From NCBI GenBank assembly GCA_028293285.1, contig JAQGPC010000177.1, positions 1-64,000 on the forward strand: a stretch of DNA of 64,000 nt, read 5' to 3'. Source of the stretch: Pedosphaera sp. GTDB lineage: Bacteria > Verrucomicrobiota > Verrucomicrobiia > Limisphaerales > Pedosphaeraceae. Position 1 is the stretch's first letter, and each line of letters opens with the position of its first letter. Made by a program: the position numbers and the translations under genes. Below are positions 1,227 to 57,651 of this stretch, in pieces. The notes under the pieces were generated by a model that ran no database searches, was not told the DNA's origin, and saw nothing but the letters and a program-made list of their open reading frames with translations.

Positions 1227-2114
1227 CTACCACTTCAAGACGGGCGGGAAGAACTCCTTGATGAGGTCATCGTAAAAGGGACGGAGTTCTTTCAAGTTGG
1301 GACGCTCGGCACTCTTGGTGTAGAGATCGTAAGGATTGAATTTCTGCACCCATTCAAACATGGCGCGGTCTTGATCGTTCATGAGGTAGTCATATTCCCC
1401 GTCCCGGTGCGCGGGATAAAAGGAATGGTAACGGATCATGTAGAGGGCTTCCTTGGGCAGATAATCCTTCGTGACATGATACAGATACTCGTCGTGACCC
1501 CAGGACATGTTGACCTTGTCCAGGCCGCAGTTTTCTTCGTAGATGCCGAGGCGCTTTTGATATTGGGGGTTTTGGCTGTCGGGATTGTCGGCGAAGAAAG
1601 AGCGGAAAACAATTTTATCGGAATAGGCTGCGCCGACAGGGAACGTATCGCCCACGACTGCCCATTGGGGCTCGCCGTAGAGGCAGAGAATTTTGCCGAG
1701 ATCATGAATCAAGCCGGTAAGAATGAACCAGCGGGGACGGCCGTCTTTGCGGATTTGCTCGGCGGTTTGCAACAGATGTTCCAATTGCGAAAGGTCAGTG
1801 TCGGGATCACTGTCGTCCACGAGCGTATTCAAATATTCCAAGGCTTCCCAGATGCTCATTTGACGGCGATTTAAACCGAGAAACTCGCGCCGTTTGTTTT
1901 GGACGAAATCGAAAGTCTGGTGACGATGATTGAGCCGGTAAAATTCGCGCACGGTGGGGCGCGCGGTATTTTCGTAATCGCGGAACTGCTCCTGCTTTTT
2001 ATCGGGATTGGTCCCAACGAGGTTTTCCGGATAACGTTCCTTCACGAAATCATCCCACTCTTCAAGGTTGGCGAGGGGAGCGGTTTGGGAAATCTGATTC
2101 TCGGGCGTTGACAT
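1227..2114 (-). CDS. myo-inositol oxygenase (MIOX family)
   Basis: 295 residues, close to the roughly 285 of animal MIOX. The enzyme (EC 1.13.99.1) cleaves myo-inositol with O2 to D-glucuronate using a mixed-valent di-iron centre. All six metal ligands of the mouse enzyme can be placed: H113, H137-D138 (in GLIHDLGK), H207 (SWGHDEY), H230 (RYHSFYPAH) and D263 (NPYDLYTK). The spacing matches that known from the mouse protein with small shifts. MIOX is mainly known from eukaryotes and appears sporadically in bacteria, including this phylum. The gene precedes an ABC permease/binding-protein pair on the same strand and faces a Gfo/Idh dehydrogenase, which suggests an inositol or related cyclitol pathway (inference). 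Confidence 0.93.
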
Positions 2115-2203
2115 AACTCTATAGATTCAGGGTTCTCTACGTTACGGATGACTAAACTACTTTCCTGCGATTTACCCGGAGTCGCAAGCGCAAAATGAAA
2201 GGA

Positions 2204-3214
2204 TTAAGCCCGTCTTTGTCTGAGCTTATCCAGCCCTACTGCAAGGATGATGATAAATCCAATGACAATTTCCTGCATGTAAGTGGGGATGTCCATTTGG
2301 TTGGAGCCGCTACGCAACACGGCCATGATTAAGGCCCCAATCATCGAGCCGAGAATACCGCCACTTCCACCGCTGAGGCTTGCGCCGCCAATGACCACGG
2401 CGGCGATGATGTCCAATTCGAGGCCGACGGCAACGGTGGGATCGCCTTGAGTGAGTCGCGATAGTTGCATCAGGCCGGCCAAGCCGCAGAACAAACCTCC
2501 AAGAGTGTAGATAATAATTTTTTGCAGGGGGACGCGAATGCCGCAGAGGCGGGCGGCGGCTTCATTCGAGCCGATGGCAAAAATATAACGGCCAAAAACG
2601 GTGCGGCGCATCACGACGGACATGACGCAGGCCAGTCCGATGGTAATCCAAACGCCGGGCGGTAACGGAAAAAATTGAGTGGGTTCATTGGCAGCCATGA
2701 AAGTGCTGACGGAGGTTTCAGGAGGATTAACGATTTGACTGTTGGCCAGCCATTTGGCGGTGCCGCGGGCGATGCCCATCATTCCTAGAGTGACAATGAA
2801 AGGCATCATTTTGAAACCGGCGATAATGGTGCCGTTGAAAAATCCAATCAAGCCACCAGCCAATATGGTGAGAATGACCACGAAAAACGGAGAGACGTTA
2901 TGCACCAGCAGGGTGGCACCGACCACGCTGGTCAGGGCGATGCTGGAGCCGACGCTCAAGTCAATGCCGCCGCTGATGATGATCATGGTCATGCCCAGTG
3001 CGCCGATGGCCACGATGACAGTTTGAGTCAGGATGATTTTGAGGTTTCCGCCAGTGAGAAAGAACGGCCTCGTTTGCGGCAGGACGGAAAATAATCCGAC
3101 TACGATCAGCAAACCAAAGAAAGGGCCAAAGGCGGTCAATAGCAGGCGCAGGCTGACATTTTTCCGGATGGGAGCCGGACTTTCATTCTTTGCAATGGGT
3201 AATGCCGGAATCAC
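2204..3214 (-). CDS. ribose-type ABC transporter permease (RbsC family)
   Basis: 336 residues, very hydrophobic, with about 8-10 membrane segments and the signature stretches of the CUT2 (ribose/xylose/inositol) permease family: GGIDLSVGSSIALTSVVGA near the N-terminus and VVIGGASLSGGSGGILG near the C-terminus. It forms the inner-membrane channel of a sugar importer. The binding-protein gene lies directly upstream, with 6 bases between them, so they are co-transcribed. No ATPase (RbsA-type) gene is adjacent. The substrate is unknown; inositol is suggested only by the MIOX gene downstream. Confidence 0.92.
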   Translation of the reverse strand: MIPALPIAKNESPAPIRKNVSLRLLLTAFGPFFGLLIVVGLFSVLPQTRPFFLTGGNLKIILTQTVIVAIGALGMTMIIISGGIDLSVGSSIALTSVVGATLLVHNVSPFFVVILTILAGGLIGFFNGTIIAGFKMMPFIVTLGMMGIARGTAKWLANSQIVNPPETSVSTFMAANEPTQFFPLPPGVWITIGLACVMSVVMRRTVFGRYIFAIGSNEAAARLCGIRVPLQKIIIYTLGGLFCGLAGLMQLSRLTQGDPTVAVGLELDIIAAVVIGGASLSGGSGGILGSMIGALIMAVLRSGSNQMDIPTYMQEIVIGFIIILAVGLDKLRQRRA

Positions 3215-3220
3215 GGCATC

Positions 3221-4213
3221 TTACTTCAGGTATTTATCGAGCGGAGGATAAAGGAGGTCTTTGATATCCGGTTCGGTCATGTTTTCGGGAGTGGCAATGT
3301 GGACGCCGGTATCAATGCGGGTTTCAACTTTTTCACCACGCAGATATTTTACCAAAGTTAAAACTCCCAAGTAACCCATGCGGACCGGGTCTTGCAGAAC
3401 CAAGCCTTGGACATCGCCATTTTTCATATCAATCACGGATTGCGAGCCGGCATCGAAGCCGACCATTTTGACTTTGCCCCCGGCTTTGCCGATATCTTTC
3501 AAAGCTTTGGTCATGGCAACCGTGGGTGGTTCACACGGACAGAAGATGCCATTCACTTCCTTACCGAAACGATTGAGAAGATTTTGCGAAGCTTGATAAG
3601 CAGTTTCCCGAGTGGCCCCTGCGTGTTGATCGGAGGAGATGACTTTGATATCAGGAAATTTCTTTTTGAGGGTATCCATGAAGCCGGATTCGCGTTCCTC
3701 GGTGCTGGCGGAACCGACGGCGTAGCGGAGCATAATAACATTGCCTTTGCCATCGAGCAACTGGCCCATCCGCTCGGCTGCGAGTTGGCCACCTTTATAA
3801 TTATCCGTGGCGACAAAGCTCACATATTTATCGGTCTTCAACCCAGAATCAAAAATTACGACCGGGATTTTCGCCTTTTGTGCATTGGCGACAGGCTTCA
3901 CCAATGCCTGCGAATCCAACGGGGCGAGGACGATGCCGCTGACACGGCGGGTGGTGAAATTTTCCACGACTTGAATTTGTTGGTCGCGGTCATCTTCGCG
4001 CAAGGGGCCTTTCCAGATCAGGTCGAGCTTGAGTCCTTTTTCCTGTAATTCACGTTGGGCTTTGACTGCGCCAGCGTGAATGGATTGCCAGTAATCGTGC
4101 GTGGTTCCCTTGGGTATGACGGCGATGGTGTAGGAAGTTTCCGCTGCCTCTGAGCCAATGGCGGTTCCAAGGAGAAAGAGCGCTGAGAGAAAGTATCGCT
4201 TAAACGGGTTCAT
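3221..4213 (-). CDS. sugar ABC transporter substrate-binding protein (RbsB/periplasmic-binding type 1)
   Basis: 330 residues beginning with a signal peptide (hydrophobic FLSALFLLGTAIGS, likely cleavage after SEA). The mature part starts with the family's first strand (TIAVIPKGTTHDYW) and keeps the DNYKGGQLAAERM helix typical of ribose/galactose/inositol-binding proteins. It would capture a sugar or polyol in the periplasm and deliver it to the permease encoded downstream. First gene of the two-gene operon. Its upstream neighbour on the same strand is unrelated, with about 90 bases between them, so a promoter probably lies in 4214-4305. The missing ATPase must be encoded elsewhere or shared. 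Confidence 0.92.
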   Translation of the reverse strand: MNPFKRYFLSALFLLGTAIGSEAAETSYTIAVIPKGTTHDYWQSIHAGAVKAQRELQEKGLKLDLIWKGPLREDDRDQQIQVVENFTTRRVSGIVLAPLDSQALVKPVANAQKAKIPVVIFDSGLKTDKYVSFVATDNYKGGQLAAERMGQLLDGKGNVIMLRYAVGSASTEERESGFMDTLKKKFPDIKVISSDQHAGATRETAYQASQNLLNRFGKEVNGIFCPCEPPTVAMTKALKDIGKAGGKVKMVGFDAGSQSVIDMKNGDVQGLVLQDPVRMGYLGVLTLVKYLRGEKVETRIDTGVHIATPENMTEPDIKDLLYPPLDKYLK

Positions 4214-4305
4214 GAATTCACCCTATGAAGGGACGGGGCTGTTTTCAATCCTTTTGATTGAGAAACCAGCTTGGTTTTCTGTCCGCGTAGCCGAATTGTT
4301 GCTGG

Positions 4306-5745
4306 TTACTGCAATTTGAACGGCATCCCAATGATGCGCGAATAAAAAGCGGACAGAGTTTGCGCGGTATGTTGGTCGCGAATATCCGGACCGAACTGGA
4401 AGGTGGCCGCAGCATCGAAGTTGTGGATCATCATGCAATAAGTGCCATTCGCCATGATGCCCAGCAACTCGCCGGTTTTGCTGAAAACCAGATCGCCGCT
4501 TGAGGGATTGAATTTGCCGAATAAACCCTTCAGAGAATTGCGATCCATTTTGACATAGCGTGGCGTGGATGTATCGATCTGAAACTTGCATTCGCCGTAA
4601 TAACCTTCGCGCGCGCCAACGAGCACGGCGTCTTGAAATTTGAACGGAGCGACAGAAGTGCGATAAACCTTGCCGCCGAGTTCTCGGGCTTGGGCTTCGG
4701 TGACGGGCATCAACACTACGCGCGGGTCCAGCAAGTGAAAAGAAAGCGAGCGAATGGGGACAGACGCGGTGCCACGGCTGAGCGTGCCGGTAAGGCTCTC
4801 CCAATCCGTGCCCGGACTCCAGAAAATCAAAGGGGTATCTTGCACATGACCCAACGCATAGGTATTGGCACCATCGGAGACCAGGACGGTTCCAGTTTCT
4901 TTTCGTTTGTTGGACTCAATGCCGAAAATGCCGGCATGGGTGGCAGCGAAGCTGGCTTGGACCCGGTTGGTCATGAAATCATTGAAAATCGTATTAGGTG
5001 CCAAGGGGCGGTTCTCGCGAATTTCCTGGGCGAGTTGTCCTGATTTGCTGGCGAGGGCTTTGACGCCTTCAGCCAGGGTGGCTTTTTCCGCACGCTCGGC
5101 TGTGACTTGCTCCTGCATGCGGGCGGCGAGTTCGGTGGCGGAGCGTTTCTCGACTTCCGCCAGTTGGAGTTGGCTGGCCAAGCGTTGTTTTTCAGCCTGA
5201 GATGCCTGGCTGTTTTTCTCCAGTTCCGCCAGTTGTGCTTTCAGCAAGGCGGCTTGTTCCGCCTGTTTGCGGGCTTCCGCTTCCAGTGCGGCGAGTTTCT
5301 CCTTCGAGATCAAGCTTTCCGTGGAAGTGCTTTGGAGTTGTTGGTTCAACGTTTGGAGATTGGTTTGGGCAGTGGCGAATTGTTGCTGAAGATTGGCTTG
5401 CTGCTGTTGAAGCTGCTTCGTTTGTTGCTCGCGAGATTGCAGTTGCTGTTGGAAAGTCTGGATTTGCTTGTCGCGCTCGCTTAACAGCGCTTCCTGTCGA
5501 TTGGCGGCATCGCGGGTCTTGGCAAGTTCGCCGAGCAATTGTTCCTGATTTTTGCGTTCCTCGTTTAACGCGAGCCGCATGACGTCACCGAGGTCCCGAC
5601 GGCTGTCAATTTGATTGGTCGCCATGTCCATCTTGACCTCGCGCGCGGCTCCATTGTCGGCGACCTTGTTGATGTCCACCGTGGAAAAAGCCAGCAGGCT
5701 GACCAGCAGGAAATCGCAAATGACGATGAGGATGCTTCGGTTCAT
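4306..5745 (-). CDS. Asp-containing membrane helix + coiled coil + trypsin-like domain protein
   Basis: 479 residues. A short N-terminal tail leads into one membrane helix at about residues 4-23 with an acidic residue inside it (D11, in VICDFLLVSLLAF). The pattern resembles the MotB helix (ADFMTAMMAFF), in which the Asp carries ions. Residues about 60-245 are Gln/Glu/Lys/Ala-rich heptads, a long coiled coil. Residues about 265-440 look like a degenerate trypsin fold: GTVLVSDG then GH(300)V, LLD(340)PRVVLMPV, and NPSSGDLVFSKTGELLGI where S415/S416 fall at the catalytic serine position. The start overlaps the stop of the upstream membrane gene by 4 bases (ATGA), so the two are translationally coupled. 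Function unknown; a stator-like pair is an inference. Confidence 0.8.
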   Translation of the reverse strand: MNRSILIVICDFLLVSLLAFSTVDINKVADNGAAREVKMDMATNQIDSRRDLGDVMRLALNEERKNQEQLLGELAKTRDAANRQEALLSERDKQIQTFQQQLQSREQQTKQLQQQQANLQQQFATAQTNLQTLNQQLQSTSTESLISKEKLAALEAEARKQAEQAALLKAQLAELEKNSQASQAEKQRLASQLQLAEVEKRSATELAARMQEQVTAERAEKATLAEGVKALASKSGQLAQEIRENRPLAPNTIFNDFMTNRVQASFAATHAGIFGIESNKRKETGTVLVSDGANTYALGHVQDTPLIFWSPGTDWESLTGTLSRGTASVPIRSLSFHLLDPRVVLMPVTEAQARELGGKVYRTSVAPFKFQDAVLVGAREGYYGECKFQIDTSTPRYVKMDRNSLKGLFGKFNPSSGDLVFSKTGELLGIMANGTYCMMIHNFDAAATFQFGPDIRDQHTAQTLSAFYSRIIGMPFKLQ

Positions 5746-8145: not shown

Positions 8146-8709
8146 ATGGTGAATGAGGATGCTGAACTGCTGGGCCGAATTCGCAATGGAGCGCCGGACG
8201 ATTTCGCCGAGATCGTCCGGCGACACCAGACGCAGGTGTTTGCGATCCTGTATCGTTATGAGCGCGACGTGCAAAGAGTCGAAGATCTCGCGCAGGAAAC
8301 CTTCGTCAAAGCATGGCGATTTCTGGACAAGTATGATGGCCGGGCACCGTTTCATCATTGGCTTTCGAAGATTGCGCTGCACGTGGCGTTAGACCACTTA
8401 CGACGGCAGAAGCGGACGCGGTTGGAAACGCCACTGGAAGACCTGGGGGAAGAGGCATTGGAATGGCTGCATTCTCCGGATGAAGAGCCACGGCTGGAAG
8501 CGAAACAGGCCGGAGAAATTCTGGCGATGGCGATGCGGGAACTTTCGCCAGAGGATCGGCAGGTGATTACGTTGCTGGAATTGGAAGGGCGTAGCGTGAA
8601 AGAGATATGCCAATTGATGGGGACAACCAGCGTAGCGGTGCGGGTGCGGGCATTTCGGGCCCGTGCAAAGTTGCGCAAAGTGCTGACACGATTGCAAAAT
8701 ACGACATGA
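8146..8709 (+). CDS. ECF-type RNA polymerase sigma factor
   Basis: 187 residues with only regions 2 and 4. Region 2 is seen in AILYRYERDVQRVEDLAQETFVKAWRFL (split here as the VEDLAQETFVKAW core), followed by the linker and region 4 with a helix-turn-helix (LEGRSVKEICQLMGTTSVAVRVR). It directs RNA polymerase to a stress regulon, typically envelope stress in the RpoE group. Its stop overlaps the next start by 4 bases (ATGA), an arrangement usual for a sigma and its anti-sigma. The flanking Spy/CpxP-like genes support an envelope role. Confidence 0.95.
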   Translation: MVNEDAELLGRIRNGAPDDFAEIVRRHQTQVFAILYRYERDVQRVEDLAQETFVKAWRFLDKYDGRAPFHHWLSKIALHVALDHLRRQKRTRLETPLEDLGEEALEWLHSPDEEPRLEAKQAGEILAMAMRELSPEDRQVITLLELEGRSVKEICQLMGTTSVAVRVRAFRARAKLRKVLTRLQNTT

Positions 8710-53855: not shown

Positions 53856-54332
53856 ATGCTAAAGGCTCTCAAAGGAAAAAAGGTAAAAGCTAAGGGTGGT
53901 CGTTTTGCGATTGTCGCTTCGAAATACAACAATCGTTATGTGGATGGAATGCTGCGCGCGGCACAGGCGGAATTGAAGCGAGCCAAGGCTGAACTGATAG
54001 AAGTGGTGCGGGTTCCCGGTGCTTATGAAATTCCAGTGGTGGCCACGAAATTAGCGGGCACATCGTCGCCACGATTTTCAGCCATTATTTGTCTGGGCGT
54101 TATATTGCGGGGCGCAACCGCGCATGCCGACCATATTGGCCGGGCGGTCAGTGATGCGTTGATGCGTATCCAACTGCAGCATGAGATACCGGTGATTCAT
54201 GAGGTGCTGTTGCTGGAGAATGAAGAACAGGCGCGCGTACGTTGTTTAGGAAGAGAACACAATCGCGGCGCTGAGGCGGCACAGACCGCATTGGAAATGG
54301 CGAAAGTGCTTTCCGAAGAACCTTTTGCCTAA
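53856..54332 (+). CDS. ribH: 6,7-dimethyl-8-ribityllumazine synthase
   Basis: 158 residues. Motifs [27 protein letters not shown] and a substrate-binding [20 protein letters not shown] are present; a typical GVxIrGxTxHfd patch is recognisable although A/D replace some positions. It joins the RibA product with the RibB product to make lumazine, the last-but-one step of riboflavin synthesis. Lies 8 bases after ribBA. The C-terminal helix ([16 protein letters not shown]) is complete. Confidence 0.95.
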
Positions 54333-54525: not shown

Positions 54526-55506
54526 GTGAAAGACAACAAAAAGAAATCAGAATCCAAGCCCCTAACCCACCGCATGGATCAATGGATCCAAAGTGCCGGC
54601 GTTCATATTGCCAGCAAAACACCACGCCGCACTTTCATTGGGCGTATAACCACGGGAATCATTGCGATTGGGAGCACCAGCCTGATTCTCAAGCCAAGTG
54701 ATGCCCAAGCCAGCCTTTGCGGCATTACGGAATGTCGCGGCACCAACGAAATCTCGGTCTGCTATGCGCCATGGGTGGTGACTGCAGCGGGGGGAGTAGG
54801 GGTTTACAAAGGACCTTCTTTTAGCGCTGCACGGGTGACGGATACAAGCGGTGTTCCGATTACCATACCCAATGGCAAGCATTTCGGGCGGTGCAGCAAT
54901 CGAGGCGGCAGTGCAGGCTGTCCTGACCCCGGCCCGCGTCCGAGCTATAATGGTTTCCTCTGGGGCTATTGGGATACGGGCACGCCGCGCCAAGGATGGA
55001 TTCCTTACGGCGCCGGGTATGCCTCCGCCGATACGAGTTGGACGGGCAAGTTGTGTGGGCCAGCTGACTATGATTTTGATTGTCGTTTTGCCAGCCCAGG
55101 TCCAAACAATGATTATCCCTGGAGGAAAAGCTTGTGTGGTCTTGGACATAGCTCCACTGGTTATGTCTGTGGTGGCAGTGCAGCTCCCTCGGGCACCTGC
55201 AGCACAGCCCATTGGAAGATTGGCACGAGCGGCAGCGATCTGAGTCACGAGAGATACTATATCCGCTATGGAGAAAACAGCACCACGTTTGGCTGGTTGG
55301 TTCCTGGCGACGTAGTTTATCGCTACGGATATGCCCATGGCGCATGTTGCACGGCATGCCCGGGTGGCGTCTGGAGTTGTGTGCAGGCAGTTTGTTGTGC
55401 CTATGTGCCCAATGGCTGTCGCGGTTGGACGTGCTCAGACATCCTTGGTTCGACAACTACGAGCACCGGAGCTTGTTTCCCGCCAGTGCCTTCGTGCCCG
55501 AATTAA
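54526..55506 (+). CDS. Tat-exported protein with 20 cysteines (MauE/MauD-associated), unknown function
   Basis: 326 residues from GTG 54526, which has AAAGG 8 bases upstream. A twin-arginine signal (SKTPRRTFIGR, Arg at about 34-35, then a hydrophobic stretch ending DAQA) leads into a mature part with 20 cysteines, clustered towards the C-terminus (ACCTACPGG, AVCCAY, CSDIL). Residues after the signal also contain an SH3-like stretch (VGVYKGPSFSAARVTD). The signal layout resembles that of the methylamine dehydrogenase light chain, but the tryptophan-tryptophylquinone sequence context is not recognised. Two genes for MauE-like and MauD-like proteins follow, which in methylamine dehydrogenase systems form the light-chain disulfides. 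I do not recognise the family. Confidence 0.7.
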   Translation: MKDNKKKSESKPLTHRMDQWIQSAGVHIASKTPRRTFIGRITTGIIAIGSTSLILKPSDAQASLCGITECRGTNEISVCYAPWVVTAAGGVGVYKGPSFSAARVTDTSGVPITIPNGKHFGRCSNRGGSAGCPDPGPRPSYNGFLWGYWDTGTPRQGWIPYGAGYASADTSWTGKLCGPADYDFDCRFASPGPNNDYPWRKSLCGLGHSSTGYVCGGSAAPSGTCSTAHWKIGTSGSDLSHERYYIRYGENSTTFGWLVPGDVVYRYGYAHGACCTACPGGVWSCVQAVCCAYVPNGCRGWTCSDILGSTTTSTGACFPPVPSCPN

Positions 55507-55523
55507 TTGAGATGTTCCAAAAT

Positions 55524-55549
55524 CTCCCTTCACGAAAGCGTGAAGGGAG
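55524..55549 (+). terminator. strong hairpin between the cysteine-rich gene and the mauE-like gene
   Basis: A perfect 11-bp stem (CTCCCTTCACG 55524-55534 and CGTGAAGGGAG 55539-55549) with a 4-base AAAG loop. The following TTCTCTC is only weakly T-rich, so it would reduce rather than stop transcription, or protect the upstream mRNA end. It fits a design with abundant structural protein and less maturation protein. Confidence 0.65.
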
Positions 55550-55566
55550 TTCTCTCACCAAACAAA

Positions 55567-56076
55567 ATGTCTGGCGTAATTATTCTGTTACTGGCCGCAG
55601 TTTTTTTAACTGCGGCCATTTCCAAACTGCGAGCGCAAGACGCGTTTCGTGCGGTGCTGCGGAATTTGATTCATGAGCGGTTGGTTAATCCGACAGCGTT
55701 GATTGTTCCTCTAGTTGAACTGTTGCTTGCGGGGTTTTTGCTGAGTGGAGTCGCGCCGCAAAAAGTGATCATCGCTGCGATTGCCCTGCTGGCCATCTTC
55801 ACAGTTGTTCTGGCGGAGATGTGGCGGCGGGGGCTTAAAGGCTGTGCCTGCTTTGGAGAATCTGTCAACACTGCGACCACCGGCAGCGGGGTGGTTAGAA
55901 ACATTATTCTTATCGCTGCTGCCGTATCCATGCTTGTCTGGCCGGAACCGGTTTCCTTTTTTGGACCGGACATTTCCACATTTTTAGGAAGGTTGACGGT
56001 GGTTGTGGGCGCGCTTTGCTTTTGGCCTTGCGTGGTGGCCGTGGTGAATCGCAGGAAAATGATATTTAATTTTTAA
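55567..56076 (+). CDS. MauE-like membrane protein
   Basis: 169 residues from ATG 55567 (in-frame codons upstream lie within the hairpin). About four membrane segments; the loop GCACFGE matches the conserved CxCFG of MauE/DoxX-like proteins, where two cysteines shuttle electrons like those of DsbB/VKOR-type enzymes. MauE is needed with MauD to form the six disulfides of the methylamine dehydrogenase light chain. Here the likely client is the cysteine-rich Tat protein upstream. The start of the mauD-like gene follows after 5 bases. Confidence 0.8.
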   Translation: MSGVIILLLAAVFLTAAISKLRAQDAFRAVLRNLIHERLVNPTALIVPLVELLLAGFLLSGVAPQKVIIAAIALLAIFTVVLAEMWRRGLKGCACFGESVNTATTGSGVVRNIILIAAAVSMLVWPEPVSFFGPDISTFLGRLTVVVGALCFWPCVVAVVNRRKMIFNF

Positions 56077-56081
56077 CGATC

Positions 56082-56759
56082 ATGAATGCAATCTGGATAA
56101 CTTCAATGGTTCTGCAATGGGCAATGATTTTAGTGCTCAGCCTGTTGGTGTTTTCTCTGATGCGCCAGTTGGGCGAACTTACGTTGCGCCTGAATGGCGA
56201 AGCGAAGGAGCCAGCCGAGACTTACGCGCCATTCAGCAAGGTGCCCGAAAGCATGGTGCCACTCGTCAATGGCGGTACCTATCAATTTGGAGGCGCACAG
56301 CCTACGCCCAGCATGGTTGTATTTTTCTCCCCTGAGTGCAGCGCGTGCGCTCTTTTGCCGGAAGCACTCCGGGATTTCACGAGCAAAGTTTCCCGGACAG
56401 AAGTGAATTTGCTCGTCGTAATAAGAGTCGGACGTCCCGCCGCTCAGAAATATATTGAAGGACAAGGATTGGCAGGGGTTGCCATTGCGGTTGAAGAGGA
56501 TATTCCGGAGCAATTGAAGCCTGGTCGTGCTCCCTTCGGCGTGTCATTTACGAACAGCGGACTAGTGGCTGCCCGGGGCAAACCCAAAGCTCTTGCCCAC
56601 CTTCTCCAAATGGCACAGGCGGCACAGACCATGGACGAGGCCGCGCCATCCCATTCGATTCGCACACATGAATGGGGCGAATCAGCTCCTTATTGGGAAC
56701 TGAATGAGAATGCAAACACGGGAAGAAACGAAAAAGAGGCAGTGCTAACTGCTTCCTAG
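56082..56759 (+). CDS. MauD-like membrane-anchored thioredoxin-fold protein
   Basis: 225 residues. One N-terminal membrane helix (WITSMVLQWAMILVLSLLVF) then a short linker and a thioredoxin-like domain with FFSPECSACALLP, in which C-S-A-C is the redox CxxC. Position and layout match MauD, the partner of MauE in disulfide formation of periplasmic proteins. The C-terminal about 45 residues are a polar extension absent from typical MauD. Third gene of the cysteine-rich protein locus. Confidence 0.8.
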   Translation: MNAIWITSMVLQWAMILVLSLLVFSLMRQLGELTLRLNGEAKEPAETYAPFSKVPESMVPLVNGGTYQFGGAQPTPSMVVFFSPECSACALLPEALRDFTSKVSRTEVNLLVVIRVGRPAAQKYIEGQGLAGVAIAVEEDIPEQLKPGRAPFGVSFTNSGLVAARGKPKALAHLLQMAQAAQTMDEAAPSHSIRTHEWGESAPYWELNENANTGRNEKEAVLTAS

Positions 56760-56787: not shown

Positions 56788-56940
56788 ATATACATTTCTG
56801 CCTTGCTTCACCCTTCTGAATAGCGGTATTTCCTTAGCGTCGAATTAATGGAGAGTGAGATTGTGAAATGTTTCACAAATCACTTGCGGCGTGAATTAGC
56901 GAATGTTATTTTCGCACCACTGTTAATTGTTAAATTATCT

Positions 56941-57651
56941 ATGAAAATGAACCCACGTTTTTTGGTTATTCCCGCACTGATTGCCGGACTGCAAGCCGCC
57001 TCCGCAGCCGACATTACTGGAACTGTCACGCTGAAAGGGACACCACCGCCCGAAAAGAGCATTGATGCAATCACGAGCGATCCGAATTGCGGCAAGTTGC
57101 ACAGTGGTCCAGTGAAGACACAATTTTATGTGGTTGGTTCCAAAGGTGAATTAAAGGACGTAGTGGTCGTGGTGCGTGGGATCAGCGGCAAATCCGCGGG
57201 TGAATCAGCGGCACCGTTGGTTATGGACCAAAAGGGATGTGAATACGTGCCGTACGTAACAGCAGTTCAGAGCAATCAAAAGATTGTCGTGAAGAATTCG
57301 GACCCCGTCCTGCACAATATTCATCCGACGCCAACCGGCAATGGCAACAAGGAAGTGAACAAGGCCCAGATGGCTGGTGGACCGGACATCACTTTTACCT
57401 TTGCCACCCCGGAAGATTTCCTGCGCTTTAAGTGCGATGTGCATCCCTGGATGTTTGGTTATGTGACCGTGGTGGATCATCCTTATTTCGCCGTGACCGA
57501 CAAGGATGGCAATTTCAAGATCGCCAATGTGCCGCCGGGCAAATACACGGTTGAAGCCATGCACCGCAAAGCGGGCAAGGATTCAAAACCGGTTGAGGTC
57601 AAGAGCGACAATGTGAAGCAAGACTTCACGCTCTCCGTGCCGGCTCAATAG
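56941..57651 (+). CDS. exported cupredoxin with C-terminal carboxypeptidase-regulatory-like domain
   Basis: 236 residues from ATG 56941; a longer frame to 56848 has no signal peptide at its start. A signal peptide (ends AASA) precedes a cupredoxin domain with type 1 copper ligands: His in LHNIHPT, and C-x2-H-x3-M in KCDVHPWMFGYV. The last 60 residues (YFAVTDKDGNFKIANVPPGK) form a regulatory-like beta sandwich. It is the first gene of the oxidase locus and may donate electrons or deliver copper to the oxidase (inference). A terminator separates it from ctaA. Confidence 0.85.
   Translation: MKMNPRFLVIPALIAGLQAASAADITGTVTLKGTPPPEKSIDAITSDPNCGKLHSGPVKTQFYVVGSKGELKDVVVVVRGISGKSAGESAAPLVMDQKGCEYVPYVTAVQSNQKIVVKNSDPVLHNIHPTPTGNGNKEVNKAQMAGGPDITFTFATPEDFLRFKCDVHPWMFGYVTVVDHPYFAVTDKDGNFKIANVPPGKYTVEAMHRKAGKDSKPVEVKSDNVKQDFTLSVPAQ

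Follow-up and report, generated by a model that had tools for sequence, protein, structure and literature searches.

A cysteine-rich Tat-type protein gene beside a MauE/MauD-type pair in Pedosphaera sp.: a likely substrate-plus-machinery module with no adjoining methylamine dehydrogenase genes

Methylamine dehydrogenase (MADH) is the enzyme whose disulfide bonds are known to need MauE and MauD, and the primary paper on the two proteins is reportedly that of van der Palen from 1997. To our knowledge, bond formation in Tat-exported proteins with many disulfides has been little studied beyond the general Dsb-type systems. Reuse of the pair for cysteine-rich precursors has already been proposed in Streptomyces: the sections of PMC7794033 drawn on here describe candidate RiPP families that are encoded with mauE, and in one family also with mauD, and with no other mau genes. 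Their precursors have at least eight cysteines, and MauE and MauD were suggested to modify them, although in those sections the disulfide role of MauE is termed speculated and the exact function of MauD unclear. In a comparable proposal, the two disulfides of humidimycin are ascribed, in the part of PMC7168211 consulted, to one protein of the DoxX family and another with a thioredoxin domain. Among open-licence papers, none was found on a Tat-exported or SH3 client of MauE and MauD. The locus described here shares with the Streptomyces clusters, as those sections present them, a MauE, a cysteine-rich product and the lack of other mau genes, but the products there are actinobacterial peptide precursors, whereas the one here is a 326-aa Tat-type protein; with this locus, the proposal reaches a different phylum and a large protein of the Tat type.

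The window, meaning the whole 64,000-nucleotide stretch of DNA that was analyzed, is C29:1-64000, part of a contig of a 5.87-Mb draft genome. On its plus strand, ribH (53856-54332) is followed by the gene for the cysteine-rich protein, the proposed substrate (54526-55506), by mauE (55567-56076), by a mauD-like gene that begins 5 bp further on (56082-56759), and then by an operon of copper-protein, ctaA, ctaB and cox genes. The ribH region was compared in eight relatives, and all three cassette genes were used in tblastn searches. In four of the eight, G007 (from the same genus), G005, G001 and G071, ribH directly adjoined the copper-protein and ctaA (cox) genes; in the other four, the DNA covered had no copper protein near ribH, and in two of them it extended only about 1.5 kb downstream. 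None of the three cassette genes was found by tblastn in the ribH region of any of the eight relatives. The cassette is a single insertion that cleanly separates ribH from the cox operon. Because the cox operon retains its own upstream palindrome, downstream of the insert, the cassette lies between two older transcription units and is part of neither. The G+C content and third-position G+C content of the cassette are close to those of the neighboring genes, and therefore composition neither dates the gain nor indicates a donor. The best explanation given below includes the proposal that the three genes were gained horizontally as one cassette, a substrate together with an oxidizing pair, which we consider an even call.

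The palindrome itself, TTGTGAAATGTTTCACAA (56861-56878, TTGTGAA-N4-TTCACAA), is perfect and lies upstream of the copper-protein/ctaA/ctaB/cox operon. A similar palindrome was present in three relatives, G007, G005 and G001. With up to one mismatch, the chance expectation is 0.04. Since the palindrome fits the Rex-type consensus, NADH/NAD might control the oxidase operon. The listed open reading frame of the copper protein (56848-57651) takes in the palindrome, and the ATG at 56941, where the relatives show ATGAAA, is the likelier start.

The earlier note on this DNA had named the two genes behind the cysteine-rich gene as MauE-like, with CxCFG, and MauD-like, with C-S-A-C, and both identifications held. 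The MauE-family membrane protein (169 aa, best read from the ATG at 55567) contains CACFG and belongs to PF07291, which it matched over residues 4-123 at E = 1.4e-20 (74.3 bits, cut-off 27). The MauD-like protein, predicted to be a membrane-anchored thioredoxin-type protein of 225 aa, contains CSAC and aligned with most of the TIGR02661 profile at E = 5.9e-10, with a score of 38.9 bits that is far under the curated cut-off of 188.6, so it does not qualify as an equivalog. It has an N-terminal anchor with RQ.G.L..R and a C..C in the thioredoxin-like region, and relative to the MauDs of MADH operons it kept W13, R28, Q29, G31, L33, R36, C86 and C89. Judged by its sequence, it is very divergent, and in the MauD tree it sat on a saturated branch whose length was at the limit. 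In the MauE tree, the MauE of the window joined the genome's own second MauE and that of an Acrocarpospora locus (L087) with 97/93 support and long branches, and this non-MADH trio lay apart from the MauEs of dehydrogenase operons.

Compared with the mau operon of, for example, Paracoccus, the cassette has a CxC-bearing MauE that belongs to the same Pfam family, a MauD-like protein with the anchor motif and a CxxC, and a cysteine-rich Tat-type substrate whose gene adjoins those of the pair. It differs in that the substrate gene precedes mauE, while in the mau operon it follows mauD; in having CSAC in the MauD-like protein, where the mau operon has CPxC; in the grouping of its MauE with non-MADH MauEs; and in the absence of adjoining MauB-type, MauA or MauG genes in the window, in agreement with the earlier statement that no heavy-chain or MauG gene is adjacent.

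Among 320 genomes of the order, the MauD-like protein was found only as the window's own copy (E ≤ 1e-8), and TIGR02661 matches occurred in 12 of 387 genomes of the phylum (E ≤ 1e-6), the window's own included. Five of these 12 were inspected, again including the window's own, and four (f65/g127) had mauB-E-D-A-type genes by size and sequence. We take the phylum to be Verrucomicrobiota, since the class of the window genome also includes Methylacidiphilum-like genomes that carry mauB-E-D-A-cytochrome genes (compare PMC2474590, as far as the part consulted goes). A MauD scan of genome_contigs returned 40 loci, 39 of which had MauB and MauA and so were methylamine or amine dehydrogenase operons, a proportion to be read with the seed of the scan in mind, a three-row alignment (A7) in which two rows were MADH MauDs and which was biased towards MADH loci. 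The exception was L087, an actinobacterial pair without MauB or MauA beside an ABC transporter gene. In that locus (positions 1722-5531, Acrocarpospora phusangensis), MauE and the MauD-like protein are encoded behind a SARP-like regulator and the ABC transporter gene, both recognized by eye, and there are no dehydrogenase genes; it is possibly a cluster for a disulfide-containing peptide. Another locus, L027 (G361:C1:161671-162168, minus strand), is a second, MauD-like stretch interrupted by three in-frame stops; its genome also carries an intact mau-type operon, and the stretch is probably a decayed copy. In the window's own genome, another MauE-family gene (L003, G000:C283, positions 1423-2516, minus strand) has a rhodanese-type neighbor by eye.

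The protein encoded in front of the pair had been described in the earlier note as a Tat-signal protein with 20 cysteines, which was confirmed. Its frame starts with GTG, has an AAAGG-type ribosome site upstream by eye, and encodes 326 aa. The Tat-type signal region (54565-54714, about residues 14-63) was recognized by eye from the twin-arginine motif TPRRTFIG, a hydrophobic stretch, and DAQA ahead of the likely cleavage site, and the protein is accordingly predicted to be exported via the Tat pathway. All 20 cysteines lie past the signal peptide, confined to residues 65-324, giving 20 cysteines in a mature protein of 264 residues. When 51 non-overlapping open reading frames of the window, each of 150 aa or more, were compared, the highest cysteine content (5.9%, against 3.7% for the runner-up) was that of this frame in its longer form, which starts with TTG. 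Single-sequence AlphaFold models of the protein had mean pLDDT values of 29.8 and 38.3 and were unusable.

Searches for relatives of the cysteine-rich protein returned no match in Pfam or NCBIfam (E ≤ 10), in PHROG (E ≤ 1) or among PDB sequences (E ≤ 10). In a search of eight genomes of the family, the only copy was that of its own genome. Among 320 genomes of the order there was no convincing homolog, with five other weak, chance-like matches at E ≤ 0.01, and likewise none among 387 genomes of the phylum, where one other match was broken by internal stops. The best match outside the own genome, in G034 (E = 4.7e-6), was rejected as a relative because it came from a reading frame that overlaps an antiporter gene. 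At the sensitivity of the scans, the protein was absent from genome_contigs, viral_contigs and the plasmid and phage collections. Distant relatives might be missed, since the homolog searches used a single sequence and the contig scans required exact eight-residue stretches. The combination of this protein with a MauE/MauD-type pair is represented by one example only.

The C-terminal part of the protein weakly resembles a bacterial SH3 domain. The SH3 fold is frequently used in cell-wall or ligand binding. There was no Pfam match to SH3_3 (PF08239), but when the C-terminal segment (55258-55458, about residues 245-311) was aligned by hhalign with an SH3_3 profile built from 27 of 30 loci of the own genome and its relatives (L097, L109 and L116 having been set aside in advance), it scored 20.3, a value reached by none of 100 and none of 60 shuffles. 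In an alignment displaying 8 of the 27 profile domains, Y-I-R-Y-G-E-N-S...G-D-V-V...W-S-C-V...G-W-T-C-S-D-I-L in the cysteine-rich protein matched the GEN-S...GD.V...W..V...GW...L pattern of SH3_3 domains, with a cysteine-rich insert in addition. Both halves of the mature protein showed bacterial SH3 spacing by eye, although the N-terminal half failed the shuffle test against the SH3_3 profile. SH3_3 domains (L093-L122) were present in all 20 genomes searched, the own genome and 19 relatives, and at these loci several open frames, some 340-490 aa in length, carry two of them. Disulfides, which are predicted for the cysteine-rich protein, are found in SH3-like domains of fungal muramidases, which bind the cell wall according to the part of PMC10394673 consulted. 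The protein differs from both the SH3_3 and the fungal SH3-like domains in having far more cysteines and no recognized catalytic domain, and in lying below Pfam detection.

Two hairpins bracket the mauE start codon. The first (55524-55549, plus strand), which the earlier note had placed between the cysteine-rich gene and mauE, is indeed a perfect 11-bp hairpin with arms CTCCCTTCACG and CGTGAAGGGAG and the loop AAAG; the second, also perfect and of 11 bp, lies within the mauE coding sequence (55592-55618). When arms had to be 10 bp or longer and loops 3-10 nt, the 64-kb window contained just three perfect hairpins, and five mononucleotide shuffles of it yielded none whose arms reached 11 bp. 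The third of the window, also of 11 bp, is at 8192-8222. A 127-nt region containing both hairpins at the mauE start had a fold z of -6.9 against shuffles. Terminator prediction called neither of them, and because the one at 55524-55549 has no T tract, it is not a simple terminator. The hairpins could plausibly raise the ratio of substrate to machinery through processing or protection of the message.

Because the pair lies directly behind the cysteine-rich Tat-type gene and all three genes are in one insertion, a dedicated module of a substrate with MauE/MauD-type machinery is likely. In the explanation to which about half of our confidence goes, the cassette encodes a disulfide-rich, SH3-like extracytoplasmic protein together with its own MauE/MauD-type pair for oxidative folding. 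From the signal and the cysteine pattern we infer that the 20-Cys protein would leave the cytoplasm via Tat and that its cysteines would pair outside the cytoplasmic membrane to form up to ten disulfides. If the mau operon is taken as the model, the membrane-anchored, thioredoxin-type MauD-like protein with its CSAC would exchange disulfides with it, and MauE, a CxC membrane protein, would hand electrons into the membrane. Both the dedication of the pair and the function of the cysteine-rich protein are likewise read from sequence. Since the folded protein would have at least one SH3-like domain, its most likely role is to bind peptides of the cell wall or some other ligand at the surface, and it would not be an enzyme with a built-in cofactor. 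Of the earlier proposal of a new periplasmic protein, possibly with an amino-acid-derived cofactor or metal, matured by Mau-type machinery, the pairing of a likely substrate with its machinery was supported by the position of the pair directly behind the cysteine-rich gene in one insertion, and the cofactor was not supported.

An alternative, which we consider unlikely, is that MauE and its MauD-like partner serve thiol oxidation in general, with the cysteine-rich gene a chance neighbor or one of several clients. MauE-family proteins occur in many settings, the own genome has two further PF07291 matches above the cut-off elsewhere, and the hairpins at the mauE start could separate expression of the genes. 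The co-orientation and close spacing of the three genes argue against a general pair, as does their location within one insertion that is missing from the relatives.

It is rather improbable that the cysteine-rich protein is a secreted antibacterial or signaling polypeptide, RiPP-like or toxin-like, or the precursor of one, with disulfides made by MauE and MauD. The strain-specific gain of the genes would fit such a product, as would the proposal of MauE and MauD acting on cysteine-rich precursors in Streptomyces (PMC7794033), the DoxX-family and thioredoxin-domain oxidoreductases of the humidimycin lasso cluster (PMC7168211), in both cases as far as the parts consulted go, and the ABC transporter gene that adjoins the MauE and MauD genes of the Acrocarpospora locus. 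However, a protein of 326 aa with a Tat signal is unlike a small precursor, and no immunity, protease or transporter gene was recognized beside the cysteine-rich gene in the window.

The cofactor reading would make the protein a quinoprotein-like subunit, a remote cousin of the light chain with an amino-acid-derived cofactor, matured by its own MauE and MauD. The adjacent MauE and MauD-like genes and two W-x-C motifs seen by eye close to the C-terminus would fit it, as would a Tat-type signal akin to those of MauA light chains: the signal region (residues 8-61) aligned with them at a pairwise hhalign E of 2.2e-5. With a profile of 18 signal peptides of MauA proteins (two from plasmids and 16 out of the 39 that the loci provided, the window protein excluded), the cysteine-rich protein ranked first in its whole genome (E = 0.052), but the same profile had a match at E ≤ 0.1 in 186 of 387 genomes of the phylum, and ordinary Tat signals scored equal or higher. 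In a small control set for the MauA-type signal, the protein's entry (P0001) scored 37, against 25 for the top of 12 other Tat-like open reading frames; the set had 55 candidates before repeats, MauA proteins and unscored rows were dropped, and 13 were left, one of which was P0001's own copy. The likeness of the signal to those of MauA is no greater than ordinary Tat signals can show and serves only as a lead. The similarity to quinoprotein light chains that the earlier note had suggested looking for was confined to this region. The mature protein scored 14.9 against a light-chain profile of 42 sequences (39 from loci and three references), less than the 27.9 reached by the best of its 40 shuffled copies, and the protein had no match to PF02975, the MADH light chain, at E ≤ 10, though that model found four of four MauA proteins at 6.6e-47 or better. 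PF02975 matched in none of 146 genomes (the window's own and 145 relatives), a search in which the built-in controls matched in none either, and no MauB-type gene adjoins the cassette. The PF02975 result and the profile score below shuffles argue against the mature protein being a MADH light chain, and the wider quinoprotein reading is very improbable.

A metal-binding or metal-storage role, for which the 20 cysteines among 264 mature residues might speak, has very little chance of being right, given partners whose CACFG and CSAC point to thiol oxidation, the scarcity of histidines (five) and acidic residues, and no recognized metal transporter gene adjacent.

The preferred explanation, a disulfide-rich protein with its own folding pair, suggests that the Mau folding machinery is reusable for unrelated proteins. 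A broader and doubtful proposal is that MauE and MauD are a portable oxidative-folding pair, not an accessory of MADH by origin, which would serve diverse disulfide-rich proteins exported by Tat; a signal region of the MauA type, unusually long, would be their shared address, and the cassette would be an example with an SH3-like client. Without a methylamine dehydrogenase, the cassette would offer a simple client, probably not an enzyme, on which to study MauE/MauD chemistry, and it would support the view that the pair has been reused across unrelated cysteine-rich products.
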